64,000 nucleotides of DNA from contig NZ_AP014810.1 of assembly GCF_002355515.1 (NCBI RefSeq), forward strand, positions 1 through 64,000, given 5' to 3'. This stretch comes from Methylorubrum populi (GTDB lineage: Bacteria > Pseudomonadota > Alphaproteobacteria > Rhizobiales > Beijerinckiaceae). Both the position numbers and the translations under genes were made by a program. The notes under the pieces were generated by a model. The model worked only from the letters and a program-made list of their open reading frames with translations. It was not told the DNA's origin and ran no database searches. Of this stretch, positions 35,035 through 52,582 are shown one piece after another (positions within the stretch are counted from its first letter, which is position 1; each line of letters starts with the position of its first letter).

Positions 35035-35095
35035 GAGAGCGGACGACCGACAGGGTTTCGGTCTGCTTGCAATCGCAAGCATTATGCGTCAGTCT

Positions 35096-35123
35096 CCCAT
35101 GCTTGCTGTTGCAAGCATGGGAG
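35096..35123. promoter_or_regulatory. hairpin covering the ribosome-binding site of the P63C gene
   Basis: CTCCCATGCTTGC and GCAAGCATGGGAG form 13-base arms around a 4-base loop. The right arm includes GGGAG, the likely Shine-Dalgarno sequence six bases before ATG 35129. A second small palindrome GCTTGCAATCGCAAGC lies just upstream. The layout suggests translational control or a repressor site over the gene start. Confidence 0.5.
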
Positions 35124-35128
35124 ACACG

Positions 35129-36145: not shown

Positions 36146-36226
36146 TCGGTCTGCGGAGCTCTGAAGCACTGACGATCTCGGGTGGATCGGCTACGGTCGC
36201 ACCCAAGAAATGGCGGGGTGGAAACG

Positions 36227-39028
36227 GTGCGGCTGAGTTGGAATGAGATCCGGGCCCGGGCGGCGCGGTTCGCCGACGAGTGGAGCGACGCCCGTTACGA
36301 GAAGGGCGAAACGCAAAGCTTCTACAACGACCTCTTCGAGGTGTTCGGGGTCAAGCGCCGGCGGGTCGCCAGCTTCGAAGAGCCCGTCAAGCTGCTCGGG
36401 GCGAAGCGCGGCTTCATCGACCTGTTCTGGAAGGGCGTGCTGCTCGTCGAGCAAAAGAGCGCCGGCCGCAGCCTCACCCCGGCCAAGGCGCAGGCGCTCG
36501 ACTACTTCCCTGGCCTGAAGGAGGCCGAGCTACCCCGCTACATCCTGCTCTCGGATTTCCAGACTTTCGAGCTGCACGACCTGGACGAGGGAACGGAGCT
36601 ACGGTTCACGCTTGCCGAGCTGCCCCAGCACGTCCAGGCCTTCGGCTTCATCCTCGGCGTCCAAAAGCGCACGTTCCGCGATCAGGCCAAGGTCAACATC
36701 GAAGCCTCAGAGCTGATGGGCAAGCTCCACGACGCGCTGAAGGCGTCGGGCTACACGGGCCATGACCTCGAACGCTTCCTCGTCCGCCTGCTCTTCTGCC
36801 TGTTCGCCGACGATACGGGCATCTTCGAAGAGCGCGACATCTTCGAGGCCCTGATCCGGGATCGCACCCGTGAGGATGGCAGTGACGTAGGGCCTTGGCT
36901 CGCCAACCTGTTCGAGGTGCTGAACACGCCCCTGGAGCGGCGCCAGGCCAAGCTTGACGCGGACCTGAAGCAATTCCCCTACGTGAACGGGGACCTCTTC
37001 GCCGAGCGCCTGCCCATCCCGGCTTTTGACGCCGAGATGCGGACACGGCTCTTGGACGCCTGCGCATTCTCGTGGGACGCGATCTCGCCGGCGATCTTCG
37101 GCTCCCTGTTTCAATCGGTCATGAACGCGAAGGAGCGACGGGCGGCGGGAGCGCACTACACCACCGAGAGGAACATCCTGAAGGTCATTGAGCCCCTGTT
37201 CCTGGATGAGCTGCGGGCCGAGTTCGAGCGCCTGCGGGCACGGCGCGACACGGGGCGGGCGAACGCGCTTAGGGCGTTTCAGGACAAGCTCGCCGGGCTG
37301 CGCTTCCTCGACCCGGCCTGCGGTTGCGGGAACTTCCTCATCATCGCCTATCGCGAGCTGCGGGCGCTCGAAACGGAGGTGCTGAAGGAGCTGAACCCCA
37401 AGGGGCAGCGCACCCTTCTCGACGTGGCCACCCTCTCCAAGGTGGATGTGAACCAGTTCTACGGGATCGAGATCGGGGAGTTTCCGGCCCGCATCGCCGA
37501 GGTGGCGCTGTGGATGATGGATCACATCATGAATGTGCGGCTCTCGCTGGAATTCGGCGAGGCCTATGCCCGCATCCCACTTAAGACCTCGCCTCACATC
37601 CGGCACGGGGACGCCCTGGAGGTGGATTGGGCCACGGTGCTGCCGCCGGCCGAGTGCAGCTTCGTGTTTGGCAACCCGCCTTTCGTCGGGGCGAAGTACC
37701 AGACCGAGGCGCAGCGCGCCCAGGTGCGCCGGATCGCCGGGCTCGGCGGCTCGGGCGGGACGCTCGACTACGTGACCGCCTGGTTTCTGAAAGCTGGGGC
37801 CTACGTGCGCCAGGGCCGGGCACCGATCGGCTTCGTCGCCACGAACTCGATCACGCAGGGCGAGCAGGTGGCGCAGCTCTGGCCCCTGCTCTTCGACCGT
37901 CACGGGCTTGAGATCGCCTTCGCGCATCGCACCTTCGCGTGGGGATCGGACGCGCGGGGCGTCGCCCACGTGCATGTCGTCATCGTCGGCCTGACCCGCC
38001 GAGATCAGGAACCGAAGGAGAAGCGGCTTTTCAGCTATGACAACATCAACGCCGATCCGGTGGAGAGCCGGCACGGAGCGCTGACGGCCTACCTCTTCGA
38101 CGCGGGCCAGGTCGCCAACCGCCATCTTGTCGTTGACGAACGGTCCCGTCCTCTCTGCGACGTGCCGCGGCTGGTGAGCGGGACGCAGCCCATTGATGAT
38201 GGGAACTACATCTTTGACGCGGCCGAGCGTGCCGCCTTCGTGGCGGCGGAGCCTGAAGCAGCCCTCTTCCTGCGGCCCTACATCGGCTCCGTCGAATACA
38301 TCAACGGCCTTCAGCGGTGGATCTTGTGCCTGAAGAAAGCCTCGCCTGGTGATCTTCGCAAGATGCCGCTCACTGTCGAGCGAATGCGGAAGGTGAAGGC
38401 ATTCAGATCTAAGAGTCAACGCAAGAGCACACTCGCGATAGCAGACTACCCTGACCGCTACAACGTGGAGGTCATACCGGACCGCCCTTTTCTCACCATC
38501 CCAGAGGTTAGTTCAGAGCGTCGGGAGTATGTTCCGATCGGCTGGCTGGAGCCCCCGACCATTCCTAGCAACCTCGTTCGTGTTCTACTTGATCCTGATC
38601 TCTGGCATTTTGGTATTCTCACCTCACGAATGCATATGTCATGGCTGCGACACATCGGGGGGCGCCTGAAGAGCGATTATAGATACTCGGCTGGCGTGGT
38701 CTACAACGCCTTTCCCTGGCCTTCGGCGACCGACGCGCAGCGAGCTAAGGTGCGCGAGCTGGCCCAGGCCGTGCTCGACGCCCGCGCCCGCTTTCCTGGC
38801 GCGACGCTCGCCGATCTCTACGACGCCGACGTGATGCGGCCCGAGCTGCGGAAGGTCCATCGCGCCCTCGACGCGGCCGTTGACCGGCTCTACCGAGGCG
38901 TGGCCTTCGGCAGTGACCGCGAGCGGGTGGAGCACTTGTTCGGCCTCTACGAGAAGCTCGTAACGCCCCTGACGGCCGCGGCTGCGGCACGGCCGCGCCG
39001 CCCACGGACGAGGGCTGCTGCTGAATGA
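36227..39028 (+). CDS. MmeI-like type IIL restriction-modification enzyme
   Basis: 933 residues, close to MmeI (about 919). The N-terminus V-RLSWNEIRARA aligns with MmeI's M-ALSWNEIRRKA as I recall it, which supports GTG 36227 with GGGGTGG before it. The nuclease motif is D...VEQK in FIDLFWKGVLLVEQKS (residues 62-78). The methyltransferase motifs are LDPACGCGNF (about 362) and GNPPF (about 483), the latter indicating N6-adenine methylation. A target-recognition region and a helical C-terminus follow. Such enzymes cut DNA about 20 bases from the site and protect by hemimethylation. All motifs are intact, so no separate methylase is needed. Confidence 0.88.
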   Translation: MRLSWNEIRARAARFADEWSDARYEKGETQSFYNDLFEVFGVKRRRVASFEEPVKLLGAKRGFIDLFWKGVLLVEQKSAGRSLTPAKAQALDYFPGLKEAELPRYILLSDFQTFELHDLDEGTELRFTLAELPQHVQAFGFILGVQKRTFRDQAKVNIEASELMGKLHDALKASGYTGHDLERFLVRLLFCLFADDTGIFEERDIFEALIRDRTREDGSDVGPWLANLFEVLNTPLERRQAKLDADLKQFPYVNGDLFAERLPIPAFDAEMRTRLLDACAFSWDAISPAIFGSLFQSVMNAKERRAAGAHYTTERNILKVIEPLFLDELRAEFERLRARRDTGRANALRAFQDKLAGLRFLDPACGCGNFLIIAYRELRALETEVLKELNPKGQRTLLDVATLSKVDVNQFYGIEIGEFPARIAEVALWMMDHIMNVRLSLEFGEAYARIPLKTSPHIRHGDALEVDWATVLPPAECSFVFGNPPFVGAKYQTEAQRAQVRRIAGLGGSGGTLDYVTAWFLKAGAYVRQGRAPIGFVATNSITQGEQVAQLWPLLFDRHGLEIAFAHRTFAWGSDARGVAHVHVVIVGLTRRDQEPKEKRLFSYDNINADPVESRHGALTAYLFDAGQVANRHLVVDERSRPLCDVPRLVSGTQPIDDGNYIFDAAERAAFVAAEPEAALFLRPYIGSVEYINGLQRWILCLKKASPGDLRKMPLTVERMRKVKAFRSKSQRKSTLAIADYPDRYNVEVIPDRPFLTIPEVSSERREYVPIGWLEPPTIPSNLVRVLLDPDLWHFGILTSRMHMSWLRHIGGRLKSDYRYSAGVVYNAFPWPSATDAQRAKVRELAQAVLDARARFPGATLADLYDADVMRPELRKVHRALDAAVDRLYRGVAFGSDRERVEHLFGLYEKLVTPLTAAAAARPRRPRTRAAAE

Positions 39029-40408: not shown

Positions 40409-40650
40409 TGCGGGTTTCTGGCGTGATGCTTACGCAATCGCGAGAAGGGGGAGTGGGGGCGAACTGGTCTGGCCAGCGGCTCTGCGTTTGAGTATGCACC
40501 ACTCAAAATCTAGAAATGCCCGGGACCCGGAGTGCTGCAAGACGTGATGATGGGATGGTCCGTTCGGGCATCGTACATCGGCAAAGCCAATGATCATCAT
40601 TTCTCATCCGCACATTGCTCAATGATGTAGGTATCCACACTTTCAGTCGA

Positions 40651-40696
40651 GGTTCGGGCCCCTCTGGCACAGCACGATGCTGTGCGATGTCGAACC
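40651..40696 (+). ncRNA. structured leader element, copy A
   Basis: The outer stem GGTTCG/CGAACC encloses the conserved GGCCCCTCTGG on the 5' side and CGATGT on the 3' side. A variable inner hairpin CACAGCA-CGA-TGCTGTG sits between them. It ends 43 bases before the ATG of the gene at 40740. Relative to the other copies the outer stem has changed C to T with a matching G to A on the other arm. Confidence 0.75.
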
Positions 40697-40739
40697 TGAC
40701 GCGCGCGATGACGCGCGCCACCGCAAGAGGAGGACTTCT

Positions 40740-41237
40740 ATGCCGTTCAAGAACGATCTCGCTTCCCTCGTCGACGAGACGCACCAGGGAAAGAGCTACG
40801 GGGAGATCGCCGCGTCCTCGGTCGGCGCCCTCGGCGGGCTGACCCACACGGAGGCCGCTAAGGTGATGGACGCCCTCGACGTGAAGTCGATCGAGGAACT
40901 CGCCACGTCGAAGTACGTGCTCTGGGCGCAGGCCATCGCCCACCTGGCCAAGTTCGAGAAGATCGACGCCACCAAGGTCGGAACCGACCAGGCGTTCAAC
41001 CCGAGCCTCGCGGCCATCCTCGACTCGAAGTGGGAGAAGAGGCCCCTTCGCGAGATCGCCAAGGCCTCGCCCGCGGTGCTCTCCGGCATCTCGCGCAAGG
41101 AGGCTGATCTGCTCGCGGAGGCGCTCCAGGTGAAGACCGTGGAGGAACTCGCGACGAACCGCTTCGTGCTCGTGGCGCAGGTGATCGCGCACCTCGCCAA
41201 GTACGAGGCGACGAGCCCGCTGAAGAAGGCGGCCTGA
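40740..41237 (+). CDS. hypothetical two-repeat helical protein
   Basis: 165 residues from ATG 40740, with AGAGGAGG six bases upstream. It consists of two related halves. The first reads GGLTHTEAAKVMDALDVKSI, EELATSKYVLWAQAIAHLAK. The second reads SGISRKEADLLAEALQVKTV, EELATNRFVLVAQVIAHLAK. Each half ends in the same EELAT-x6-WAQ/VAQ-x-IAHLAK block, which looks like a helical-hairpin repeat related to DNA-binding or pore-free helical modules. No catalytic residues are visible. It is under structured leader A and followed by a strong terminator, so it is a single-gene unit. Function unknown. Confidence 0.7.
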   Translation: MPFKNDLASLVDETHQGKSYGEIAASSVGALGGLTHTEAAKVMDALDVKSIEELATSKYVLWAQAIAHLAKFEKIDATKVGTDQAFNPSLAAILDSKWEKRPLREIAKASPAVLSGISRKEADLLAEALQVKTVEELATNRFVLVAQVIAHLAKYEATSPLKKAA

Positions 41238-41265
41238 GCGTCGAAGCTCCGGTTGGGTCGGAACG

Positions 41266-41296
41266 GGACGGGCGGGGTGACCCCGCCCGTCCTTTT
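41266..41296 (+). terminator. intrinsic terminator after the two-repeat protein gene
   Basis: The perfect 12-base arms GGACGGGCGGGG and CCCCGCCCGTCC around TGA are followed directly by TTTT. It ends the rightward unit 29 bases after its stop codon and also separates it from the convergent kinase gene. Confidence 0.8.
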
Positions 41297-41341
41297 CGCT
41301 TTCGGCGCTCGATACTCCGGCGCGCTATGTCTGACGCGCGC

Positions 41342-42466
41342 CTACGAGGGCAGCGATGTGCTTCCGTTCGCTCGTGGCAACAAGCGCACACGAGTGCCGG
41401 GAGTGGCGTCCTCCCACGCGACCTCGGTCCTGAGTTGCTTGGCCAACATGGTCAGTAGCGTCGTCCCGAAGCCGCTTGCGGCTCGCGGCCGGGGCGAGAC
41501 GAGTTGCCCAGCATCACGGCCGATCCCGTCGTCCTCGACTTCGAGCGTGGGAGCACCGCTTGGGCCGATGGCTGCGAGCCGGAGCGTGAGGCGCCCCGGG
41601 CGGCCGTTCGGGAAGGCGTGCTTGAGGGCGTTGGTGACGAGCTCGTTCACGATTAATCCGAGGGAGGCCGCGTCGCGGGCCGGCACCCGAGCGGCCGCGA
41701 CGGGATCGATGTCGAGATCGAGCCGGACGGTGTCGCCCCGCCCGCTCGTCGCAAGTGTGTCCCGCGCGAGGTCGGCCAGGTAAGCACCGACGTCGACGTG
41801 GTGGACGTCCGTCGCTTGGTAGAGCTTGGTGTGCAGGGTTCCGATCGCCGCTACGCGCTCGATCATGCCGTCGACGAGGGTGCGCAGGCCCGCGTCCTGG
41901 AACGACCGGGATTGGAGGTGCAGGAGCGAGGCGACGAGCTGCAGGTTGTTCTTCACGCGGTGGTCGACCTCCCGTAGGAGGAGGTCTTGCCGGGCGAGCG
42001 CGGCGGCGAGTTCCTCGTTCGCGCTCTGCAGGTCCCTCTCCAGCGCCTTGCGAGCCGTGAGGTCGACCTGCGTGCCATAGAAGAACACGAGGTCGCCCGC
42101 CGCGTCGCGGACGGGACTGATGAAGAGAACGTTCCAGAACGGCGTCCCGTCCCGGCGGTAGTTGAGCAGTTCCACCTCGATCGGCTCCCCGCGCTCCACC
42201 GCCGCCCGGATACGCGCCACAGTGGCCTGGTCCGTCCCAGGGCCTTGCAGAAAGCGGCAGTTGCGCCCGATCACCTCGTCGCGCGGGTAGCCCGTCACGC
42301 GAGCGAACGCGTCGTTCACGTAGACGAGCGGGTTGTCGGGCTCCCGGGGATCGGTAATTGTCACGGGGATACGGCCCGAGCGAACCGCCGCGGCGAACGG
42401 GTCGTCGAATTCGTGCGCGGCCTCGATCTCCGCGTTGCGACGGCGCGACCGCTCACGGCCGGGCAT
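41342..42466 (-). CDS. LOV-domain blue-light sensor histidine kinase
   Basis: 374 residues. The N-terminal PAS/LOV domain contains GRNCRFLQG with the flavin-adduct Cys at residue 70, plus NDAFARVTGY and FWNVLFISPV. A short coiled linker leads to a HisKA_2/HWE-type kinase with phospho-His 169 in REVDHRVKNN, the N-box NELVTNALKHAF and G-box DDGIG. LOV-histidine kinases of this type feed the alphaproteobacterial general stress response (PhyR/EcfG). It is the last gene of a leftward unit with ftsH and a membrane protein. No response regulator is nearby. Confidence 0.88.
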   Translation of the reverse strand: MPGRERSRRRNAEIEAAHEFDDPFAAAVRSGRIPVTITDPREPDNPLVYVNDAFARVTGYPRDEVIGRNCRFLQGPGTDQATVARIRAAVERGEPIEVELLNYRRDGTPFWNVLFISPVRDAAGDLVFFYGTQVDLTARKALERDLQSANEELAAALARQDLLLREVDHRVKNNLQLVASLLHLQSRSFQDAGLRTLVDGMIERVAAIGTLHTKLYQATDVHHVDVGAYLADLARDTLATSGRGDTVRLDLDIDPVAAARVPARDAASLGLIVNELVTNALKHAFPNGRPGRLTLRLAAIGPSGAPTLEVEDDGIGRDAGQLVSPRPRAASGFGTTLLTMLAKQLRTEVAWEDATPGTRVRLLPRANGSTSLPS

Positions 42467-42552
42467 GGTGCCTCCCTTCTCGAAACTGAATGGTCATCGA
42501 CCGACGTGTCGCCGCGGGACAGACGAGTTCAGCTGCCCCGCGGTTGAACTCC

Positions 42553-42957
42553 TTATCGCGATCGCCACCAAAGCAGCAGGATCGTGACGACGAAGCCGCC
42601 GGACACAAGCGCCGTCGCGCTGCGGGCGACGACAGCGCCAGCGTTTGCGACGTCACTCGAGCCAGCAAGCGCGTAGGGGAGAACCGGCACGGCCGTCGCC
42701 GTTCCGGCGAGCGCCAGGAGTGCGATGGTGAGAGCGCAGGCGCTCGCCGCGACATCCGACAACACGCCTTGTCGCGCCGCGAAGCCGGCGAGGCAGACGA
42801 GCCCGCCGAGGATCGCCGGGATCAGCACCGTCCAGTGCGGCAGGCCGCCCAGAACGACGCTGACAAGGCCGATCACGATCAGCGCGCCGCCGTAGTAGTA
42901 CACCGTCGGTCGATACCAAGCCGCCACCGGCGAAAGGGTCTGCGAAGCGGATCTCAT
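42553..42957 (-). CDS. hypothetical four-helix membrane protein
   Basis: 134 residues with four predicted membrane segments (YYYGGALIVIGLVSVVLGG, TVLIPAILGGLVCLAGF, ACALTIALLALAGTATAV, ATALVSGGFVVTILLLWW). It lies 51 bases after ftsH and 86 before the LOV kinase on the same strand and is probably part of that operon. No family recognised. Confidence 0.65.
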   Translation of the reverse strand: MRSASQTLSPVAAWYRPTVYYYGGALIVIGLVSVVLGGLPHWTVLIPAILGGLVCLAGFAARQGVLSDVAASACALTIALLALAGTATAVPVLPYALAGSSDVANAGAVVARSATALVSGGFVVTILLLWWRSR

Positions 42958-43008
42958 GTGCGGTCTCCTCTGGATACGAGTGGAATGGGTCTCCTTTGGG
43001 CGGAAGCT

Positions 43009-44949
43009 TCAGCCCGCTCCTTCGAGCTGCGGAGTGGGGGACTTGCCGGAGTCCGCAAGGCGTTGCGGCCGGCTCGGCACCGAGCTCCTGGGAGGGGTGG
43101 CTGGCGAGGGCTCGCCGGCGTCGCGCACCGGCGGCTTTCCATTGAGCAAGTCGCGGATTTCGTCGCCCGAGAGCGTCTCGTACTCAAGGAGGCCGCGGGC
43201 GAGCGTCTCCAGGTCCTCGCGCCGCTCGGTGAGGATCTGGCGGGCGTCGTTGAGGCCGGTCTCGACGAGCCGACGGACCTCCTTGTCGATGGTCTGGGCC
43301 GTGGCTTCAGAGAGGCTTTGCTGGCGTCCCATGGACATGCCGAGGAACACCTCGCCTTGGTTCTCGGCGTAAGCCACCGGGCCGAGCTCATCCGAGAAGC
43401 CCCAGCGCGTCACCATCATGCGGGCGAGATTGGTCGCCTGCTCGATGTCGCTCTGCGCGCCCGACGTCACCTTCTCCTTGCCGAAGATTATCTCCTCCGC
43501 GATGCGCCCGCCCATCATGATGGCCAAGCGCGAGGTCATCTGCTCGAAGCTCATCGAGAGCTTGTCGCGCTCAGGGAGCTGCATGACCATGCCGAGCGCC
43601 CGACCGCGGGGGATGATGGTCGCCTTGTGGACGGGATCGGTGGCGGGAACGTTCAGCGCGACGATGGCGTGGCCGGCCTCGTGATAGGCGGTGAGCCGCT
43701 TCTCGTCGTCGGTCATCGCCATGGAGCGGCGCTCGGCGCCCATCATCACCTTGTCCTTGGCGTCCTCGAAGTCTCGCATCATGACGATACGCTTCGACCG
43801 GCGTGCAGCGAGCAGGGCCGCCTCGTTGACGATGTTGGCCAAGTCGGCTCCGGAGAAGCCCGGAGTGCCCCGAGCCAAGGTCCGCAAATCGACGTCGGGT
43901 CCGAGCGGCACCTTCTTGGTGTGAACTCGAAGAATGGCCTCGCGGCCGACCACGTCCGGGTTCGGGACGACGATCTGGCGGTCGAAGCGGCCGGGGCGCA
44001 AGAGCGCCGGGTCGAGCACGTCGGGGCGGTTCGTCGCCGCGATGATGATGATGCCCTCGTTGGCCTCGAAGCCGTCCATCTCGACGAGGAGCTGGTTCAG
44101 CGTCTGCTCCCGCTCGTCGTTGCCGCCCCCGAGGCCCGCGCCGCGGTGGCGGCCCACCGCGTCGATCTCGTCGATGAAGATGATGCAGGGCGCGTTCTTC
44201 TTGGCCTGGTCGAACATGTCGCGCACGCGGCTCGCGCCGACGCCGACGAACATCTCCACGAAGTCCGAGCCCGAGATGGTGAAGAACGGCACTGCGGCTT
44301 CACCAGCGACCGCTTTCGCCGTCAGCGTTTTGCCCGTGCCGGGCGGGCCGACGAGCAGCACGCCGCGGGGAATGCGGCCGCCGAGGCGCTGGAATTTCTG
44401 CGGGTCGCGGAGGAACTCAACGATCTCCTGCAGATCCTCCTTCGCCTCGTCGATGCCGGCGACATCGGCGAAGGTCACGGTCGCGTTCTCCGGCGCGATG
44501 AGACGAGCCTTCGACTTGCCGAACGAGAGCGGACCACCTGACCCCGTCAGGCCGCTCATGGCGCGGCGGCTCATCCAGACCCACACGCCGATGAGCAGCG
44601 CGATCGGCAGGATCGACCAGAATAGGCTCGCCAGCAGCGAGGGTTGAGGCGGTGGGACAGCCGTGACCTCGACGCTGCGGGCCTGCATCGTCGTGACCAC
44701 ATCCGAACCGTCAGGCACGAAGGTGGTGACCTTCGTGCCGTCCGTGCGGAGGGCCTCGATGGTCTGACCCTGGATGCGGGCCGAGCGGACCTCACCTCGC
44801 TCCACCGCGCCCACGAACGCGGAGTAGGGCAAAGCCTCCGGCCGGCCGGCGCCCTCGCGCGGAACGAACTGGCCGAAGAGCACCGACACGAAGAACGTGA
44901 ACAGGGCGAGCGTGAGCCAGCGGCGCTGATCGAAGGGTTTCTGCTCCAT
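43009..44949 (-). CDS. ftsH: FtsH-type membrane AAA+ zinc metalloprotease
   Basis: 646 residues. It has two N-terminal membrane segments flanking a periplasmic domain, then the AAA domain with Walker [15 protein letters not shown], Walker [16 protein letters not shown] and [20 protein letters not shown]. The protease zinc motif is [10 protein letters not shown]. All essential motifs are present. FtsH degrades damaged membrane proteins and some regulators. A plasmid-borne extra copy resembles the FtsH found on stress-resistance islands. It is preceded by structured leader B and followed by a membrane protein and the LOV kinase. Confidence 0.95.
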
Positions 44950-44982
44950 GGCGATCGGTCTCCTATGACAAACGTCAGTGAG

Positions 44983-45028
44983 GAGTCCGACATCGCGAGG
45001 AGAGACCTCGCCAGAGGGGCCCGGACTC
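44983..45028 (-). ncRNA. structured leader element, copy B
   Basis: On the minus strand the outer stem GAGTCCG/CGGACTC encloses GGCCCCTCTGG and CGATGT with inner hairpin CGAGG-TCTCT-CCTCG. It lies 33 bases before the ftsH start at 44949. CTTGAA about 50 bases upstream could be a heat-shock-type -35 box. Confidence 0.75.
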
Positions 45029-45100
45029 GGGCTTAGGCTTCAGATGCGAACGCGAACGGCCAAGTTCAAGAGATATGGTCGCCCCGAACGTCGCCGGTTC

Positions 45101-46096
45101 TCAGGTCGGCCAGATCGCCCAGACATAAAGACCGTAGCCCAAAACGAGCGCCGCCCCCTCTCGACGGCCGATGCGCAGCCCGGTCCAGGCGAAGGCGAGG
45201 AGCAGGCCTGAGACGGCGAGCATGACCAGATTGTCGAACCGGGCGATCTCCGGAGGCACGGCCGTCGGCGCGATGAGCGCGGTGAGGCCGCCGATGCCGA
45301 GGATGTTGTAGATGTTGGACCCGAGAACGTTGCCCAGCGCCACGTCGGACTGACGGCGGATCGCGGCCACGACTGAGGTGACGAACTCAGGCATCGAGGT
45401 ACCGACGGCGACGATGGTGAGGCCGATCACCGTCTCCGAGATGCCGAAACGCTGTGCGAGGGCGATCGCGCCCTCGACGAGGTAGCCGCCGCCCAGGACG
45501 ACCAGGGCAAGGCCGCCGAGCGCGAAGGCGAGCGACAGCGCGACGCCAGCGAGCCCCGCCTTCGGAGCCGAGGCGCCCGCCTGATGAACGCCGGCGTGCA
45601 CGGCCTCGAACGCCTCGGCCTTCTCGAACGCCGCCGTGTGCCCATCGCCGCCGACCCGCTCCTGCCGCCAAGCGTAGACGATATAGGCGACGAGGCCGGC
45701 GACGAAGAGAGCGCCGACCCAGCGCTCGAGAGCGAGGGTCCAGCCGACCAAGGCGAGAAGCGCGGCGGTGGCGACCACCAACACGCCGTCGCGCTTGAGC
45801 GCGCCCGAGGGGACCGCGATGGGCGAGATGAGGGCGGCAAGCCCGAGGATCAGCAAGATGTTGGCGATGTTGGAGCCGACGATGTTGCCGACCGCAATGC
45901 CGGACGAGCCAATCAGCGCCGCCTGCACGCTCGTCACGAGTTCCGGCGTCGAGGTGCCGAAGCCGACGAGGGTCAGGCCGATGAGGAGCGGCGAGACGCC
46001 CATGCGCTCGGCGAGCTGCACGGCGCCGCGCACGAGGAACTCGCCGCCGAGGACGAGGAGCGCGAGGCCGCCGAGGATCGAGAGTGCGACGTCCAT
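45101..46096 (-). CDS. CaCA-family sodium/calcium antiporter
   Basis: 331 residues in two inverted halves. The alpha repeats are GFGTSTPELVTSV with GNIVGSNIANILLILG, and AVGTSMPEFVTSV with GNVLGSNIYNILGIGG, carrying the ion-binding Glu residues. Ten or eleven membrane segments are visible. The family (YrbG-like) exchanges Ca2+ for Na+ or H+. It starts two bases after the nhaA stop, so it is coupled to nhaA. Confidence 0.9.
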   Translation of the reverse strand: MDVALSILGGLALLVLGGEFLVRGAVQLAERMGVSPLLIGLTLVGFGTSTPELVTSVQAALIGSSGIAVGNIVGSNIANILLILGLAALISPIAVPSGALKRDGVLVVATAALLALVGWTLALERWVGALFVAGLVAYIVYAWRQERVGGDGHTAAFEKAEAFEAVHAGVHQAGASAPKAGLAGVALSLAFALGGLALVVLGGGYLVEGAIALAQRFGISETVIGLTIVAVGTSMPEFVTSVVAAIRRQSDVALGNVLGSNIYNILGIGGLTALIAPTAVPPEIARFDNLVMLAVSGLLLAFAWTGLRIGRREGAALVLGYGLYVWAIWPT

Positions 46097-46098
46097 GG

Positions 46099-47301
46099 CT
46101 ACGCTCCTGGTAGGGCAGAGACCGGGCGCGCCGGCGCGCCGAGCGCCGCGGCCCTGGTAGCGAAGAGCAGGATAGCGACGCCGGCCAGCGCTGAGACGGT
46201 CGATCCCGCCAGCACGCCCAGCCGCACCTGGTTCATCAGCGAGCCGTCGGTGAAGGCGAGCGCCCCGATGAAGAGGCTCATCGTGAAGCCGATGCCGGCG
46301 ATGCAGGCGATACCTGCGACCTGGGCCCAGGATGCGCCCGCGGGCAGGTGGGCGAGGCCGGCCCGGACCACGACGAAGACGCAGAGCAGAATGCCCATGG
46401 GCTTGCCGAGGGCGAGGCCGAGCGCGATGCCGGCGGTCACGGGATGAGCGATTTCGTCAAAGCCGAGGCCGACGAGCGGCACCCCGGCGTTCGCCAGCGC
46501 GAACACAGGCATGATGACGAACAGGACGGGGAACTTCAGGGCATGGACGAGGTCGTGCAAGGGATGCGCCCTCGCGCCCGTGCCGTGCAGCGGCACGAAG
46601 AGGGCCGTGACCACGCCGGCCAGCGTCGGGTTCACGCCCGACTTCAGCACGCAGAACCACAGCACGGCGCCGACAAGGAGATAGGGCGCGAGCCGCGTCA
46701 CGCCGGCCGCGTTGAAAACGGCGAGCGCCAGCACCGCTCCCGCCGCCCACGCGAGCGCCACGAGACTGATCTCGGCGGTGTAGAAGGCGGCGATGACGAG
46801 GATGGCGCCGAGATCGTCGATGACGGCGACCGCGAGCAGGAACGCCTTGAGGGCGGTCGGCACCCGCTTGCCCAGCAGGCCGACGACCCCGACCGCAAAG
46901 GCGATGTCGGTCGCGGCCGGGATCGCCCAGCCGTTCGCGAAGACGGGATCGCCGCCGGCGAGGGCGAGATAGACGAGCGCGGGCGCCGCCATGCCGCCGA
47001 CGGCGGCGGCGAAGGGCAGGGCGGCGCGGCTGGCGTCCGAGAGCGTGCCCTCCTTGAACTCGGCCTTGATCTCCAGGCCGATGAACAGGAAGAACACCGC
47101 CATCAGCGCGTTCTTGATCCAGTCTTTCAGCGGGTCGGCGAGTTCGTAGGCGCCGACGCCGATCCGGATCGGCGTCGCGAGAACCTCGCCGTAGAGGTCA
47201 GACAGCGCCGAGTTGGCAAGGATGAGAGCGACGACCGCCGCCCCGAGCAGGACGAAGCTCGCCCGGATTTCAGTCGAAGAGTTCGAGGGAGAAGAGGCCA
47301 C
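46099..47301 (-). CDS. nhaA: Na+/H+ antiporter NhaA
   Basis: 400 residues with about twelve membrane segments. The key ion-binding pair is in AVIDDLGAILVIA (two adjacent Asp). Further NhaA motifs are LFIGLEIKAEF near residue 75 and AIPAATDIAFAVGV with its conserved TD. It exchanges internal Na+ for external H+ under alkaline or salt stress. First gene of a two-gene unit with the CaCA antiporter. It has no copy of the structured leader, but a hairpin terminator of the preceding unit lies just upstream. Confidence 0.93.
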   Translation of the reverse strand: MASSPSNSSTEIRASFVLLGAAVVALILANSALSDLYGEVLATPIRIGVGAYELADPLKDWIKNALMAVFFLFIGLEIKAEFKEGTLSDASRAALPFAAAVGGMAAPALVYLALAGGDPVFANGWAIPAATDIAFAVGVVGLLGKRVPTALKAFLLAVAVIDDLGAILVIAAFYTAEISLVALAWAAGAVLALAVFNAAGVTRLAPYLLVGAVLWFCVLKSGVNPTLAGVVTALFVPLHGTGARAHPLHDLVHALKFPVLFVIMPVFALANAGVPLVGLGFDEIAHPVTAGIALGLALGKPMGILLCVFVVVRAGLAHLPAGASWAQVAGIACIAGIGFTMSLFIGALAFTDGSLMNQVRLGVLAGSTVSALAGVAILLFATRAAALGAPARPVSALPGA

Positions 47302-47335
47302 GGGGTTTCGCCGAGAGGAGAAGGTTGGGAGTTCA

Positions 47336-47372
47336 ACCGGTGCAGGGGGGTGTGCTTCGCCCCTGCACCGGT
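47336..47372 (-). terminator. hairpin between nhaA and the DUF4112 unit
   Basis: ACCGGTGCAGGGG and CCCCTGCACCGGT are 13-base complementary arms. The hairpin lies 85 bases after the stop of the leftward gene at 47458 and before nhaA. No T-run follows, so it is only a probable terminator. Confidence 0.5.
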
Positions 47373-47457
47373 CGTCAGCGGTGTCACGACCGATGCAGGC
47401 CGTAGGAATGAGCGCCTCTCAACGAGAGAACCAGCTTAGCAGTTCGTATGGTCATCG

Positions 47458-47832
47458 TTATCTTCTTTTGAGAAAACGATGCATGAGGCGTCGCGAGCGC
47501 CAAATCGAGTCGGTTGCAGAGCCCGGCGGAAGCGCCCACCTTGGCGATCTGGAGACCCGGCTTGATCGCCCGGCGAGGCGCAGAACGGCGGGGACGACCA
47601 GGATAAGCGCACAGCCGATCAGCCATATGACGATCACGCCGGCGAGGCCCAGGCTCGTGAGCAGGCCAGCGAGCCAGGACAGCCAAACCACCGTCTCGGG
47701 GTGGCCCGTCACGAGGTCCGCGTTCGCGGCAAGCCCATCTCCAAGCCAGCCAAGGAGCGCATAGGTCCCCCAGGCGAGAAACGACCACAGCACCGCCGCT
47801 ACGAGAGCAAGGATCCACATAAGGCGCCTCAT
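47458..47832 (-). CDS. hypothetical membrane protein coupled to DUF4112 gene
   Basis: 124 residues with two clear membrane segments (LMWILALVAAVLWSFLAWGTY and LAGVIVIWLIGCALILVVPAV) and a basic C-terminus. Its ATG overlaps the stop of the DUF4112 gene (ATGA), so they form one operon under structured leader C. No family recognised. Confidence 0.65.
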   Translation of the reverse strand: MRRLMWILALVAAVLWSFLAWGTYALLGWLGDGLAANADLVTGHPETVVWLSWLAGLLTSLGLAGVIVIWLIGCALILVVPAVLRLAGRSSRVSRSPRWALPPGSATDSIWRSRRLMHRFLKRR

Positions 47833-48293
47833 CGCACGCCCTCCATGATGGGCGCCGGCGCGGCGTCAGTCCTTAGGACCCACCCATGCGGGCGCGGTTC
47901 AGCGGCCCCGACTCCGTCGAGGTGCTCGCGCAGCAGCGCCATGTTGCGCTGGTTGGAGCGGTAGAACACGTCGCCGAACCAGCCCACGACAGGGATGGCG
48001 CTGATGACGAGGTCGACGCCGACGTGGCCTGCCATGCGCAGAAGCGTCTTGAACGGAACCCCAAGGCGGCGCGCTTCCCAGATCAGGTAGGCGGACAGCC
48101 CCTTCGAGGTGAGCGTGCCGACGCCCGGGATCAGGTTGAGCAGGGCGTCCGCGCCCACGCGCACGTTGGTTCCCGGCACGCGCACCGCGCTGTCGAGGAG
48201 CCGCGCCAGCGCGTCGAGGCGTTCGCGCGCGTCTTGCACGTGGTCGGACGGCGCCGCCCAAGTAAAATCATGATGAGTGTAAGCGGAGTGCAT
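47829..48293 (-). CDS. DUF4112 membrane protein
   Basis: 154 residues. LDALARLLDSAVRVPGTNVR, GADALLNLIPGVGTLTSKGL and AIPVVGWFGDVFYRSNQRNM are the DUF4112 signature, with two amphipathic or membrane segments. Function unknown. It heads a two-gene leftward unit preceded by structured leader C. Confidence 0.85.
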   Translation of the reverse strand: MHSAYTHHDFTWAAPSDHVQDARERLDALARLLDSAVRVPGTNVRVGADALLNLIPGVGTLTSKGLSAYLIWEARRLGVPFKTLLRMAGHVGVDLVISAIPVVGWFGDVFYRSNQRNMALLREHLDGVGAAEPRPHGWVLRTDAAPAPIMEGVR

Positions 48294-48342
48294 TGACGTC
48301 TCCCAAGATCGGAGCGCACGCTTAAGCGCTCGTCAGGTGAGA

Positions 48343-48390
48343 GAGTCCGACATCGTCGTCTTGTGCGGACGACCAGAGGGGCCCGGACCC
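48343..48390 (-). ncRNA. structured leader element, copy C
   Basis: On the minus strand the outer stem GGGTCCG/CGGACTC (with a G-T pair) encloses GGCCCCTCTGG and CGATGT. The inner hairpin TCGTC-CGCACAA-GACGA differs from every other copy but pairs perfectly. It lies 49 bases before the DUF4112 start and faces away from copy D. Confidence 0.75.
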
Positions 48391-48533
48391 CAATGACCCT
48401 CAAGTCGTGGCGAACCGTCAAGGTTTCAAGACCGGCGCGCCCGCGATCGACATCGCCTTCGCCAATGGACCTCATTCGCATTGCGTAACCTTGACAGCCT
48501 CGGGCGCCGATCCCCACCTTGCGTACAACCCGT

Positions 48534-48583
48534 GGTCCGGGCCCCTCTGGCGAGCGCTGCCGGCGCTCTCGCGATGTCGGACC
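48534..48583 (+). ncRNA. structured leader element, copy D
   Basis: The outer stem GGTCCG/CGGACC encloses GGCCCCTCTGG and CGATGT, with a longer inner hairpin starting CGAGCGC and ending GCGCTCTCG. It is divergent from copy C, 143 bases away. The next convincing start codon is 284 bases downstream, so the leader is unusually long. Confidence 0.72.
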
Positions 48584-48867
48584 GATCCTGACATCGCTTG
48601 CCGGCCTAGGACCTCCCGTTGATGACGGGTCCTTCCCTTGCTGACTGGCTCGAAGAGTCCGCTTTGGAGCGAGCTCCGCCCTCTCGCTCGTGCCCCGCGC
48701 CGCGCTCAGGCGCAGCACGACGGCTTCAAGCTTGGTTGCTCGGCCTCTGTGACGTCAGCCTCACCGAACGGCGCACCCCAGAGATCACCCAGCGCTCTTG
48801 CAATCGTCGGCGCTCGCGACCTGCGAGCCGGTCATTCTTCTTCAACTTACCGGAACCGGAGCACCAC
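48584..48867 (+). other. long untranslated leader before the first DUF1476-like gene
   Basis: A 284-base stretch after structured leader D. The frame of the following gene is open from ATG 48619, but that extension is Arg/Ser-rich, unlike the family, and lacks a ribosome site, so I treat it as untranslated. I see no other gene here. Confidence 0.45.
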
Positions 48868-49194
48868 ATGACTCACGCCAACGTCGACCGCCTGACCAGC
48901 CCCGAAGCGCTGCTGATCGAGCACGACACCCGCGACGGCATCATCGCCCGCCGCAACGTGCTCTTCGGGCTCTGGACCGCCGCGCGCCTCGGGCTCACCG
49001 GCCCCGATGCGGAGACCTACGCCTGGAGCGTGCATTTCGCCGATCTCGATGAGCCGGGACATGACGACGTGCTGGCCAAGGTCGCCGCCGACCTTGGCCA
49101 GCATGGCTGTGCCGTCTGCGAGCGGAGCCTGCGCCGGCAACTGCGCGAGATGGAGGCCAGGGCCGAGCTCCAGCTGGCCGCCGAGCCGCTGTGA
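48868..49194 (+). CDS. DUF1476 protein, F1F0-ATPase inhibitor zeta-like (copy 1)
   Basis: 108 residues. ARRNVLFGLWTAARLGLTG, then AETYAWSVHFADLDEPGHDD and VLAKVAADL match the conserved core of DUF1476, the alphaproteobacterial zeta subunit that blocks ATP hydrolysis by the F1 motor. GGAG lies about eight bases before ATG 48868. The N-terminal inhibitory segment (HDTRDGIIARRN) is recognisable. A second, diverged copy follows. Inhibiting ATP hydrolysis would save energy under stress; that role for these copies is inferred. Confidence 0.75.
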   Translation: MTHANVDRLTSPEALLIEHDTRDGIIARRNVLFGLWTAARLGLTGPDAETYAWSVHFADLDEPGHDDVLAKVAADLGQHGCAVCERSLRRQLREMEARAELQLAAEPL

Positions 49195-49226
49195 ACCAGC
49201 ATCAAAAACCCTCGGAGGAAACGACC

Positions 49227-49559
49227 ATGCAACTTCACCTGCACGAGCCGCAATCGATGCATGCCCCACCCGCTTCGTGGTGCCCTGACGAGGATACCCG
49301 CGATCATGTGCTCGCCCGCCGCAACGTGCTCGCGGCTCTGTGGGCCGGAGGGCTGATGGGGCTCTCGGGGGCGCCGCTCACGGCCTACGCCGTCGAGGTG
49401 CATCTGGCAGACTTCGAAGCTCCGGGCGACGCCGACGTCGTCGACAAGATCACGGCCGACCTCCACCGCGCCGGTCTGCCGGCCCGCCCCTCCGAGGTGC
49501 GCTCACGCCTCAATGCGTTCCACCGCGAAGCGCTGACGCAAACGCACGCGACCGACTGA
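49227..49559 (+). CDS. DUF1476 protein, F1F0-ATPase inhibitor zeta-like (copy 2)
   Basis: 110 residues from ATG 49227, with GGAGGAAAC directly upstream. The core DEDTRDHVLARRNVLAALWA, GLMGLSGAPLTAYAVEVHLA and DFEAPGDADVVDKITADLH parallels copy 1 (48868-49194), but the rest has diverged. The ATG lies 32 bases after the copy 1 stop, so the two are co-transcribed. Function as for copy 1. Confidence 0.72.
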   Translation: MQLHLHEPQSMHAPPASWCPDEDTRDHVLARRNVLAALWAGGLMGLSGAPLTAYAVEVHLADFEAPGDADVVDKITADLHRAGLPARPSEVRSRLNAFHREALTQTHATD

Positions 49560-49585
49560 CCCCACGAACCCTACAGGAGGTGATC

Positions 49586-49891
49586 TTGCCCGACCTCTTC
49601 GCCGCCCTCGTCGCCTTCTTCCTCATCGACCCACTCAAGGCCGAGATGGCCGACAAGCTCGCCGCCGCGCGAGCGCCTCAGGCCGTCGTCGCACAGGTGA
49701 GCGCCTGCGCCCGGTCCGCCGCACCGCAAATCGTGGAGCGGGCGACCGCCGATCCATGGTGGGCCATGGCGAACACGTTCAACGTGTGGGTCGGCTCCAA
49801 GGGGCCGGAGGCGTTGCTCGTCGAGATCGCGCCGGCCTGTGCGGGCGCTGTTGCCGCCGCGCAGCCGTTTCTCACCGGACGCCAGGCGTGA
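49586..49891 (+). CDS. hypothetical small protein between zeta-like gene and exoD
   Basis: 101 residues from a TTG start at 49586. The start is supported by an unusually complete Shine-Dalgarno sequence, AGGAGGTGATC, ending one base before it; a slightly later start would give normal spacing. The protein (PDLFAALVAFFLIDPLKAEM, VVAQVSACARSAAPQIVERA) is helical with a weak N-terminal hydrophobic segment. The stop overlaps the exoD ATG (TGATG). Function unknown. Confidence 0.6.
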   Translation: MPDLFAALVAFFLIDPLKAEMADKLAAARAPQAVVAQVSACARSAAPQIVERATADPWWAMANTFNVWVGSKGPEALLVEIAPACAGAVAAAQPFLTGRQA

Positions 49892-50553
49892 TGACGCTCA
49901 CGAACCCGGTGGTTCTAACGACCACCAAGAGAACACCGATACGAGGACGCGGCGCCATCACGCGCCGCGTGATGGCGGTGGCCGGGTTGCTGCGCCAAGA
50001 GCGTGTCACGGTGGGCGAGCTGTTCGATCGGCTCGGGCCTGAGGGCCTCGGGCTTGCCCTCCTGCTTCTGACGTTGCCGACCCTCATCCCCGTTCCCGGC
50101 CCGATCGGGATCACCTTCGGAGCGCTGATCGCGCTCGTCGCGATCCAGGTTATGATCGGCGCAGGGGCGCTCTGGCTGCCCCAGGTTCTACGCTCACGCA
50201 CGTTGCCCTCTGCGATCCTGCGCGGCGTTATCGCGCGCGCCCTACCATGGTTGGCTCGCGCGGAGCACTGGCTGCACGAACGCCGGCTCGCCAGCCTCAC
50301 CGGCCGACGCGCCCGCGCCGTCGTGGCCTTGCTGCTCCTGCCGCTCGCGGTAGCGATCATCCTGCCGATCCCATTCGGCAACGTCGGACCGGCCCTTGCC
50401 CTGATCGCGTTCAGCTTAGGGTTCATGGCCCGAGACGGCGCGGCGATCCTGCTGGCCGTCATCCTGGGCCTTGCAGCCCTCGCCTGGACGGGCTTCCTGT
50501 TCATGGCGGGTGCTGCCCTGCTGGAGTGGGGAGCGGCCTTGGTCGGCTGGTAG
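49891..50553 (+). CDS. exoD: ExoD-family exopolysaccharide synthesis protein
   Basis: 220 residues. The ExoD pattern is clear: VTVGELFDRLGPEGLGLALL, LLTLPTLIPVPGPIGITFG and a mirrored LLLPLAVAIILPIPFGNVGPALALI, with about four to five membrane segments. In rhizobia ExoD affects exopolysaccharide production and alkaline tolerance. It is coupled to the gene before it by a TGATG overlap and ends the unit under leader D. Confidence 0.85.
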   Translation: MTLTNPVVLTTTKRTPIRGRGAITRRVMAVAGLLRQERVTVGELFDRLGPEGLGLALLLLTLPTLIPVPGPIGITFGALIALVAIQVMIGAGALWLPQVLRSRTLPSAILRGVIARALPWLARAEHWLHERRLASLTGRRARAVVALLLLPLAVAIILPIPFGNVGPALALIAFSLGFMARDGAAILLAVILGLAALAWTGFLFMAGAALLEWGAALVGW

Positions 50554-50617
50554 ACCGATGCCCTGCCGCACAGGGTTAAGCCTTGCGCCCAAGCTTGGCA
50601 CGACACATCTCAACCCT

Positions 50618-50662
50618 GGTCCGGGCCCCTCTGGCGAGGCATGTCCCTCGCGATGTCGGATC
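50618..50662 (+). ncRNA. structured leader element, copy E
   Basis: The outer stem GGTCCG/CGGATC (one G-T pair) encloses GGCCCCTCTGG and CGATGT with inner hairpin CGAGG-CATGTC-CCTCG. It ends 54 bases before the cydA start at 50717. Confidence 0.75.
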
Positions 50663-50716
50663 TTCATCTGGTGCCGTCCTCCGTGAAGCGGCGCGCCACC
50701 TGAAGGAGCGAAGGCC

Positions 50717-52105
50717 GTGGACGATCCGATCCTGCTCGCGCGCATCCAGTTCGCCGCGAACATCACCTTCCACATCCTGTTCCCCACGATCACCATCGCG
50801 CTCGCCTGGGTGCTGCTCTTCGTCAAGCTGCGCTTCGACGCCACGCGCGACGAGGGCTGGATGGAGGTCTACCGCTTCTGGGTGAAGGCGTTCGCGCTCA
50901 CCTTCTCGCTCGGCGTCGTGTCCGGCATCGTGATGAGCTTCCAGTTCGGCACCAACTGGCCGGGCTTCATGAACACGGTGGGCAACATCGCGGGGCCGCT
51001 CCTCGCCTACGAGATCATGACCGCCTTCTTCCTCGAGGCGGTGTTCATCGGCATCATGCTGTTCGGCCAGGGCCGGGTGTCGAACCGGGTGCACACGCTC
51101 GCGACCTTCCTCGTCGCCTTCGGCACGACGATGTCCGCCTTCTGGATTATGGTGCTGTCCTCCTGGATGCATACGCCGGACGGCTTCGAGATGCGTGACG
51201 GCGTAGCGCACGCCACCGATTGGTGGGCCATCGTATTCAACCCGTCCCTGCCCTACCGACTCTCGCATATGCTCCTCGCCTCGGGGCTCACCGTGGCCTT
51301 CCTGATCGCGGGCCTGTCGGCTTTCCGCTGGCTGCGAGGAGACCGGGCACCTGCAGTCGCCAAGGGTCTGCGGCTCGGCGTGTGGCTCGGCGCCGTTCTC
51401 ATCCCGGTCCAGATCGTGGTGGGGGACCTGCACGGGCTCAACACCCTGCAGCATCAGCCCGCCAAGGTCGCCGCCATCGAGGGCAACTGGGAGACGCGCG
51501 GGAACGTGCCGCTGCTGCTCTTTGCCCTGCCGGACGAGGAGGCGCGAGCGAACCGTTTCGAGCTTGGTATCCCGAGCGGGGCGAGCCTGATTTTGAAGCA
51601 CGACCCAGCCGGCGTCGTGCCGGGCCTCAATGACTTCAAGGGCAAGCACCCGCCTGTGGCACCCGTGTTCTGGTCCTTTCGGGTCATGGTCGGCGTCGGA
51701 ATGCTGATGCTCGTCCTTTCCTGGTGGAGCGCCTGGCAGCTCTGGCGCCGCGGCGCGGTCGGAGCCTGGACGGCGCGGGCCCTGGTCGCGATGACCTTCT
51801 CAGGCTGGGTCGCCACGGTGGCGGGCTGGTACGTCACCGAGATCGGCCGCCAGCCCTGGCTCGTGCATGGGGTGCTCACGACGGCACAAGCCGCTTCTGC
51901 GGTGCCGGCGACGATGATCGCGACCACCCTGGCGCTCTACGTGGCGGTCTACGTCGCACTGCTCGCTGCCTACGTCGGCACCCTGTTCTACCTCGCCATG
52001 AAGTCCGGGGCGGCCGCGGCGCACAGCCCGTCCGAGCCGATCGCGCAGGGCGGCGCAAGCCTGTCTCCGACAGCGCCTGCGGTACCGGCCGGCGCGGCGG
52101 CCTGA
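50717..52105 (+). CDS. cydA: bd-type (cyanide-insensitive) quinol oxidase subunit I
   Basis: 462 residues from GTG 50717 with AAGGAGCGAAGG upstream. RIQFAANITFHILFPTITI holds the first heme-ligand His, and GRQPWLVHGVL is the conserved bd-oxidase motif. The quinol loop is short, as in CioA-type oxidases rather than E. coli CydA. About nine membrane segments are visible. The partner subunit gene begins ten bases downstream but is broken by a transposon, so the complex cannot form from this locus. Structured leader E precedes it. Confidence 0.92.
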   Translation: MDDPILLARIQFAANITFHILFPTITIALAWVLLFVKLRFDATRDEGWMEVYRFWVKAFALTFSLGVVSGIVMSFQFGTNWPGFMNTVGNIAGPLLAYEIMTAFFLEAVFIGIMLFGQGRVSNRVHTLATFLVAFGTTMSAFWIMVLSSWMHTPDGFEMRDGVAHATDWWAIVFNPSLPYRLSHMLLASGLTVAFLIAGLSAFRWLRGDRAPAVAKGLRLGVWLGAVLIPVQIVVGDLHGLNTLQHQPAKVAAIEGNWETRGNVPLLLFALPDEEARANRFELGIPSGASLILKHDPAGVVPGLNDFKGKHPPVAPVFWSFRVMVGVGMLMLVLSWWSAWQLWRRGAVGAWTARALVAMTFSGWVATVAGWYVTEIGRQPWLVHGVLTTAQAASAVPATMIATTLALYVAVYVALLAAYVGTLFYLAMKSGAAAAHSPSEPIAQGGASLSPTAPAVPAGAAA

Positions 52106-52115
52106 GGAGGCGACC

Positions 52116-52544
52116 ATGGGCGAACTCTCCCCCGCCGACTGGCTGCCCGTCGTCTTCGCGGCGCTGCTCGGGCTGTCGATCCTGGCCTACGTCATCCTCG
52201 ACGGCTACGACCTCGGGGTTGGCGTGCTCTTGGGGAGCGCACGGACAGAGGCCGAGCGCGACACCATGATCGCTTCCATCGGCCCGTTCTGGGACGCGAA
52301 CGAGACCTGGCTCGTCCTCGCGACCGGCCTGCTGCTCGTGGCCTTTCCCGCCGCCCACGGCGTCATCCTGACCGAGCTTTACCTGCCGGTCGCCCTGATG
52401 CTCTTGGGCCTGATCCTGCGGGGCGTCGCCTTCAAGTTCCGCACCAAGATGGCGCCTGCTCGCAAGCTCGCCTGGGACCACGCCTTCGTGGCGGGCTCCG
52501 GTCTCACGGCGCTGGCGCAAGGCTACATGCTCGGGCTCTACATC
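52116..52544 (+). pseudogene. cydB: bd-type quinol oxidase subunit II, N-terminal part
   Basis: 143 codons: LSILAYVILDGYDLGVGVLL, FWDANETWLVLATGLLLVAFP and RGVAFKFRTK are typical of CydB/CioB. The reading frame leaves the gene at 52545 where the left inverted repeat of the Tn3 transposon begins, and stops after four extra codons. The C-terminal part lies at 12230-12738, adjacent on the original circle. Confidence 0.9.
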
Positions 52545-52582
52545 GGGGTCAGGACATAGAACGGGCACAGATATACGCTAAG
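52545..52582. repeat. left inverted repeat of Tn3-family transposon in cydB
   Basis: 38 bases beginning GGGGTCAGGACATAGAAC and ending AGATATACGCTAAG, facing the marR gene. The partner repeat is the truncated one at 10917-10947 across the circle junction. Confidence 0.85.

Follow-up and report, generated by a model that had tools for sequence, protein, structure and literature searches.

terC RNA elements clustered on a probable plasmid of Methylorubrum populi are preceded by predicted RpoH-type promoters

The closest described counterpart of the elements analyzed here, five leader-like elements in a 64,000-nucleotide (nt) stretch of Methylorubrum populi DNA (NZ_AP014810.1, positions 1 to 64,000; the whole stretch is called the window), is the terC RNA motif (Rfam RF03067), originally described, reportedly, in a 2017 survey of 224 candidate RNAs, and for which we found no published function in the open-licence literature searched. 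ROSE and fourU RNA thermometers, which are leaders of heat-shock genes, resemble the present elements in being 5' leaders of such genes, but have no match in the window, and the terC RNA differs further in being GC-rich and in carrying no Shine-Dalgarno (SD) sequence inside the element in the leaders examined. The yybP-ykoY Mn2+ riboswitch is reported to lead TerC-family and metal genes (PMC10550928), and is thus likewise a leader RNA before TerC-family genes; it differs in forming a separate Rfam family, with no match in the window.

terC RNA elements of the window and their fold

All five window elements belong to the terC RNA family. In a cmscan search of the window against Rfam 15, all five passed the RF03067 gathering threshold of 39.9 bits (49.4-60.8 bits, E = 1.6e-5 to 4.2e-8), with every match covering model positions 1-59 of 59 (both stems plus the internal loop). 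A preliminary description of this DNA, made from its letters alone, had located the same five elements on the same strands and had not recognized them as a known riboswitch; the Rfam match corrects the view of them as unrecognized by placing them in terC RNA, an orphan family. No other family reached its gathering score in the window, so that the Methylobacterium-1 motif, which has an Rfam entry and had been named as a comparator, is unmatched, and a relaxed search added only one implausible microRNA match below its own threshold. The elements are as follows, with one adjacent site:

40646..40702, + strand: terC RNA 1 (RF03067, 49.4 bits)
44978..45032, - strand: terC RNA 2 (RF03067, 58.7 bits)
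48338..48394, - strand: terC RNA 3 (RF03067, 50.2 bits)
48529..48589, + strand: terC RNA 4 (RF03067, 60.8 bits)
50613..50668, + strand: terC RNA 5 (RF03067, 53.1 bits)
48590..48596, + strand: GACATCG, complement of the CGATGTC strand of element 4, a possible alternative pairing (sequence)

As had been described, the strands GGCCCCTCTGG and CGATGT are identical in all five copies, the arms of the central hairpin vary between copies yet pair in each, and each element precedes protein-coding genes on their own strand. The elements agree with the family in sequence, in their two stems and conserved loop strands, and in a family-wide downstream gene set in which TerC is commonest, with no structural difference; they are ordinary members of a known orphan RNA family. 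What is new for the terC RNA here is the adjacent predicted RpoH-type promoter, the five-copy cluster on a probable plasmid, and the presence of non-TerC operons (ftsH, zeta/exoD, DUF4112-nhaA and cyd) behind the element.

The terC RNA is a real structured RNA, because both of its stems covary over 242 distinct elements, which together with the Rfam match bears out the structured RNA of the preliminary description. The fold has three parts, namely the outer stem, an internal loop that is large and invariant, and a hairpin that varies; covariation was counted in a fixed register without an alignment, with the inner pairs scored on 230 elements. Inner pairs 2, 3, 4, 5 and 6 are formed in 98, 97, 90, 88 and 78% of these, compared with 70, 61, 42, 43 and 43% in shuffled controls (z 11-19), and sliding the register by one base lowers inner pairs 1-6 to 8, 62, 14, 60, 29 and 37%, with only the fourth exceeding its shuffle. 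In the outer stem, pairs -5 (96%, z 18) and -6 (92%, z 12) are the strongest, pair -7 is formed in 79% of elements, and position -9 gives no pairing signal across the 242. The 5' loop strand reads GGCCCCTCTGG in 226 of 246 elements, the remainder being 1-2 bases off; true conservation may be lower, because deviations were limited to what the search pattern allowed, and one of the 246 (L263, GGACCCTCTAG) is an artefact of a pattern begun too early. This 11-mer alone is not rare in the genome (8 copies vs. 10 for the reversed pattern), whereas the full terC structure occurs six times in 5.94 Mb, five of these inside 10 kb.

The same data bear on whether the element could instead be an operator in the DNA of the initially transcribed region, recognized by a transcription factor. 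Palindromic outer arms and a promoter at short spacing would suit such a site, but the hairpin keeps its pairing even as its sequence and its length (11-53 nt) change between elements, as is typical of an RNA and not of a protein site, and we regard an operator as very improbable. Two other candidate features of the leaders were not conserved: an upstream open reading frame (ORF) at the conserved ATG, among leaders inspected by eye, and a second hairpin downstream, which we rejected since its mean fold z of -0.33 is like that of coding (-0.26) and upstream (-0.52) controls.

RpoH-type promoters upstream of the elements

Upstream regions were taken from 225 elements, of which 197 remained once near-identical regions were removed; an alignment of upstream regions revealed a TTG and a C-rich block, both blurred. 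An unbiased two-block motif search, run from random starting words and without promoter knowledge (25 starts for the real set, 15 for each control), converged on CTTGM-N16/17-CCYAYNT, with an information content of 1050 bits vs. 63 in far-upstream sequence and 47 in shuffles. The motif scores above 9 in 158 of the 197 elements, and in 149 of these 158 its second (-10) block stops 5-15 nt short of the initial stem base. Both boxes and their spacing equal the published consensus sequences of RpoH1 and RpoH2, reported as CTTGAA-N15-16-CCTATAT and CTTGCC-N15-16-CCTATCT (PMC4843759), with that of RpoH1 also given as CTTGAA-N16-CCTATAT (PMC8844928). Refitting the model from an RpoH-like start led to the same outcome (median 15.8 vs. 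7.0-7.3 in refitted controls). Among 49 held-out elements (55 new ones minus those near-identical), 40 passed a cut-off that 1.0% of random window segments attain. The groES promoter of the M. populi genome scores 20.8 under a model trained on terC leaders only, and the genome encodes two RpoH-like factors, at 366 bits and, below the curated cut-off of 323.1, at 285 bits. The latter (G000:C1:4484980-4485786) is a candidate RpoH2.

Each of the five window elements has such a predicted promoter (scores 9.8, 17.4, 17.9, 15.7 and 14.3 in order, each p <= 0.005):

40613..40644, + strand: RpoH-type promoter of element 1 (CATTGC ... CCACACTTT), the weakest of the five; p = 0.0047
45040..45071, - strand: RpoH-type promoter of element 2 (TCTTGAAC ... 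TCGCATCTGA); 0 of 3000 random segments reach its score
48400..48431, - strand: RpoH-type promoter of element 3 (TCTTGAAA ... CACGACTTGA); 0 of 3000 random segments reach its score
48489..48521, + strand: RpoH-type promoter of element 4 (CCTTGACA ... CCCCACCTTG); 0 of 3000 random segments reach its score
50581..50612, + strand: RpoH-type promoter of element 5 (CCTTGCGC ... ACACATCTCA); p = 0.0003

The linkage of promoter and terC RNA is strong, and because the motif stands directly upstream of most elements, it suggests that a terC RNA is in most cases the 5'-terminal part of a predicted RpoH-type transcript. What speaks for the transcribed leader proposed in the preliminary description is this promoter position, and its stress regulon gains support by implication, in that all five elements lie behind RpoH-type promoters and most related elements that were tested have this arrangement too. 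No mention of the linkage appeared in the open-licence literature searched, though the original description of the motif might note it. In DUF475 leaders, that of Sinorhizobium meliloti pSymB among them, about 40 nt more separate the promoter-like site from the element, so that a longer leader would be expected in pSymB. The additional 40 nt or so between promoter and terC RNA in four of these leaders (L188, L189, L192 and L289) holds GACATCGG, complementary to the CGATGTC of the element.

Beyond family membership, covariation, the gene set and the promoter motif with its narrow positional range, which the data show directly, we infer RpoH dependence, transcription of the element and control after initiation, and we consider it likely that the terC RNA is an RpoH-promoted 5' leader that acts in cis as a second control on stress mRNA. 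Each element would be driven by an RpoH (sigma-32)-type promoter and, beginning no more than about 10 nt from the predicted transcription start, would be the earliest structure in the mRNA. RpoH would set when the transcript is made, under heat, acid, oxidative or metal stress, and the terC fold would then act on the same mRNA as a separate control.

Several observations weigh against this account. No motif above 9 was found for 39 of the 197 elements, and among mapped S. meliloti promoters sigma-70 and RpoH sites overlap and false positives are many (PMC3616915). Upstream regions of tRNA genes, of which 30 were taken from the 43 tRNAs of the genome, score above 8 in 10 of 30 cases and above 12 in 3 of 30, the latter compared with 146 of 197 terC leaders. 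Of five hsp20 genes, two score 14.2 and 17.2 and the other three lie at 2.2-6.3; the top 1% of random 350-nt segments begins at 14.7. As for the RNA itself, outer pair -4/+3 is standard in only 58% of elements, and we found no expression platform shared between leaders. Immediately ahead of the conserved A in the -10 box, on the other hand, terC leaders have C in 55% and T in 34% of cases, and several well-scoring tRNA promoters of this genome have T, a difference that we read as favouring RpoH.

Promoter linkage makes the function of the terC RNA directly testable. A 5' position of RpoH type points to informative mutants and conditions (rpoH strains; heat, acid, Cu or Mn), the genes downstream point to membrane, metal or ion stress, and the plasmid cluster offers five natural reporters within one strain.

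Downstream genes and possible control after initiation

The units led by the five elements are listed below:

40740..41237, + strand: 165-amino-acid (aa) ORF led by element 1, no Pfam family (Pfam search)
43009..44949, - strand: FtsH membrane protease led by element 2 (Pfam search)
41342-42466: PAS histidine kinase, downstream of ftsH along with a 100-aa ORF without match (Pfam search)
47829..48293, - strand: DUF4112 protein led by element 3 (Pfam search)
46099-47301 and 45101-46096: NhaA and Na/Ca exchanger, which with a 124-aa ORF without match come after DUF4112 (Pfam search)
48619..50553, + strand: unit led by element 4, with ATPase-inhibitor-zeta ORFs (48619-49194 and 49191-49559) and ExoD (49756-50553)
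50717..52559, + strand: cydA (462 aa) and a shortened cydB (147 aa), led by element 5 (Pfam search)

The cydB at 52116-52559 matches profile positions 1-136 of 302, and with its product cut to 147 aa the cyd operon of element 5 looks broken. An IS240-type transposase gene (53151-53900) lies near it.

Across the family, the first downstream ORF was defined as the longest one starting within 450 nt of the element (400 nt in a further set), so that some first ORFs are wrong frames. Among 187 searched against Pfam at 1e-5 (of 189, a duplicate and the second ORF of L100 having been dropped), we counted TerC 83, DAGK/YegS 12, DUF4112 9, DUF475 7, TerB 4, Bax1-I 4, ATPase inhibitor zeta 4, Zn_ribbon_TFIIB 3, and Na/Ca exchanger, DUF2076 and Tim44 2 each, with single cases including NhaA, FtsH, cydA and MnhE. 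The further set (54 of 55 ORFs searched) gave TerC 20, DUF4112 6 and otherwise one case each, transposase and regulator genes being among these. Loci yielding no element of their own, whether unmatched by the pattern or duplicates, numbered 8 of 222 in the first set and 9 of 60 in the new set.

Bacillus TerC proteins are reported to export Mn and, on purification, to be recovered together with Sec translocon proteins, FtsH and ATP synthase subunits; FtsH is also reported to be required in cells that lack TerC proteins (PMC10550928). By analogy, the terC RNA would place TerC, FtsH and the ATP-synthase inhibitor under one signal. In Caulobacter under copper, terB and terC are reported to rise alongside dnaK, rpoH and groESL (PMC8224329), which is compatible with RpoH control of these genes; the terms "TerC" and "tellur" are absent from the main text of an S. 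meliloti RpoH1 study.

These genes lend themselves to a reading of the terC RNA as a riboswitch that senses a small molecule or ion, with Mn2+, pH or Na+ as candidates, in a role like that of yybP-ykoY. Its internal loop is near-invariant while the stems vary freely, the element is often followed by genes for TerC and for other membrane, ion and metal functions, and the Bacillus TerC gene meeY is reported to be under a Mn riboswitch (PMC10550928); against this, DAGK, cydA and FtsH have no obvious ligand in common, the leaders share no common expression platform, with starts spread over 26-147 nt, and an SD-pairing signal is limited to a subset. We hold a riboswitch to be possible, if doubtful. 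The same missing platform, the unrelated downstream genes and the location at the extreme 5' end would suit a ligand-free role in protecting or marking RpoH transcripts, as a stability element or as a site for an RNA-binding protein, but an 11-nt conserved loop strand exceeds what a simple protective hairpin needs, and this reading too is put forward only tentatively.

Returning to the RpoH-promoted leader with a second control in cis, we prefer control of translation as the putative form of that control. The most likely way of acting, put forward with modest confidence, would be binding of a ligand or protein at the invariant loop, with the ribosome-binding site becoming more or less accessible as the GGCCCCUCUGG strand is held or released. 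Start codons, sought only 15-160 nt downstream of the element, lie 26-147 nt downstream (5-95% range), and in the window 33-53 nt past the element with the SD outside it; because starts are spread so far downstream, the element is not a thermometer masking its own SD.

Pairing of the conserved strand with the SD is the strongest clue to a mechanism. Where the start lies within 45 nt, a subset picked post hoc, the probability of pairing between conserved strand and SD exceeds 0.5 in 14 of 44 leaders vs. 11% of swapped controls (mean 0.354 vs. 0.112, p = 0.0003). Over all 98 leaders, with control gene starts swapped in, a paired test of SD pairing gave p = 0.49, and with the signal confined to close starts, we did not adopt anti-SD pairing as a general mechanism; the five entries assigned to window elements reach at most 0.09. 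Predicted pairing drops when the conserved strand is reversed (p = 5e-7, 100 leaders), and SD access increases from 0.23 to 0.30 when the terC fold is imposed (p = 0.0017, 100 leaders). Complementarity of the strand to the region 8-60 nt downstream exceeds that of dinucleotide shuffles (z -5.1, 157 leaders), compared with +0.9 for 40-110 nt, and SD regions of terC-led genes pair better than controls (-12.43 vs. -11.05 kcal/mol, 122 vs. 260, p = 0.001), a difference partly due to SD strength. Pairing of the apical loop with downstream sequence averages -8.57 vs. -8.06 +/- 0.14 in permutations (156 sequences), a significant difference that related subgroups may drive and that we retain as a lead.

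A more elaborate version, which we think unlikely, is a bistable switch for sigma-32 transcripts, in which the GGCCCCUCUGG anti-SD would be locked in the terC fold by a ligand or protein (on) or else paired with the ribosome-binding site (off). It would include pairings of CGAUGUC with GACAUCG partners, found downstream in zeta and TerC leaders and upstream in DUF475 leaders, with RpoH reporting general stress and the RNA a specific membrane or metal signal. GACATC occurs 10-19 nt downstream in 8 of 193 leaders, as a trait of a subgroup and not in general. The resemblance of the conserved strand to an anti-SD would also allow the leader, once cleaved, to act in trans as a small RNA whose CCCCUCU strand pairs with the SDs of other mRNAs, and in S. 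meliloti RpoH1 is reported to drive the anti-SD small RNA AbcR2 (PMC8844928); the elements examined, however, sit ahead of ORFs, and we consider a trans-acting role improbable.

Genomic setting and distribution

Five of the six terC RNA matches in the whole genome fall on contig C2, and the sixth, on C1, leads a lipid-kinase-like gene (DAGK_cat and YegS_C). Contig C2 (64,864 bases) is probably a plasmid, because it carries genes for replication initiator A, a ParB-domain protein, a MobA/MobL relaxase, coupling proteins and Tn3 transposases. Using searches with stricter filters, in which weak matches are lost, terC RNA (E <= 0.001) was found in 138 of 298 genomes sampled from the family, 147 of 397 from the order, 52 of 385 from the class and 45 of 299 from the phylum (6 of them outside the class), as well as in one of 14 control genomes, that of Caulobacter vibrioides. 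At least three copies occur in 22 of the 138 positive genomes of the family sample, with a maximum of nine (manual count), and back-to-back pairs resembling elements 3 and 4 recur in genomes G039, G127 and G128. Relatives of element 4 were present in 155 of 72,556 plasmid records, 122 of the 155 from Sinorhizobium, Agrobacterium or Rhizobium, and in 0 of 50,697 phage records.

Identical 300-base direct repeats (5696-5995 and 53093-53392) flank most of the window, the second inside an IS240-type transposase gene and the first inside an ORF of equal length (250 aa). Upstream of the stress cluster lies an MmeI-like restriction-modification enzyme (948 aa, 36182-39025), preceded by an AAA/SMC-like ATPase (32749-35031) and a P63C-domain protein (34946-36142), a possible defence group, and the probable plasmid also carries an ArdC-type anti-restriction protein (29435-30457).

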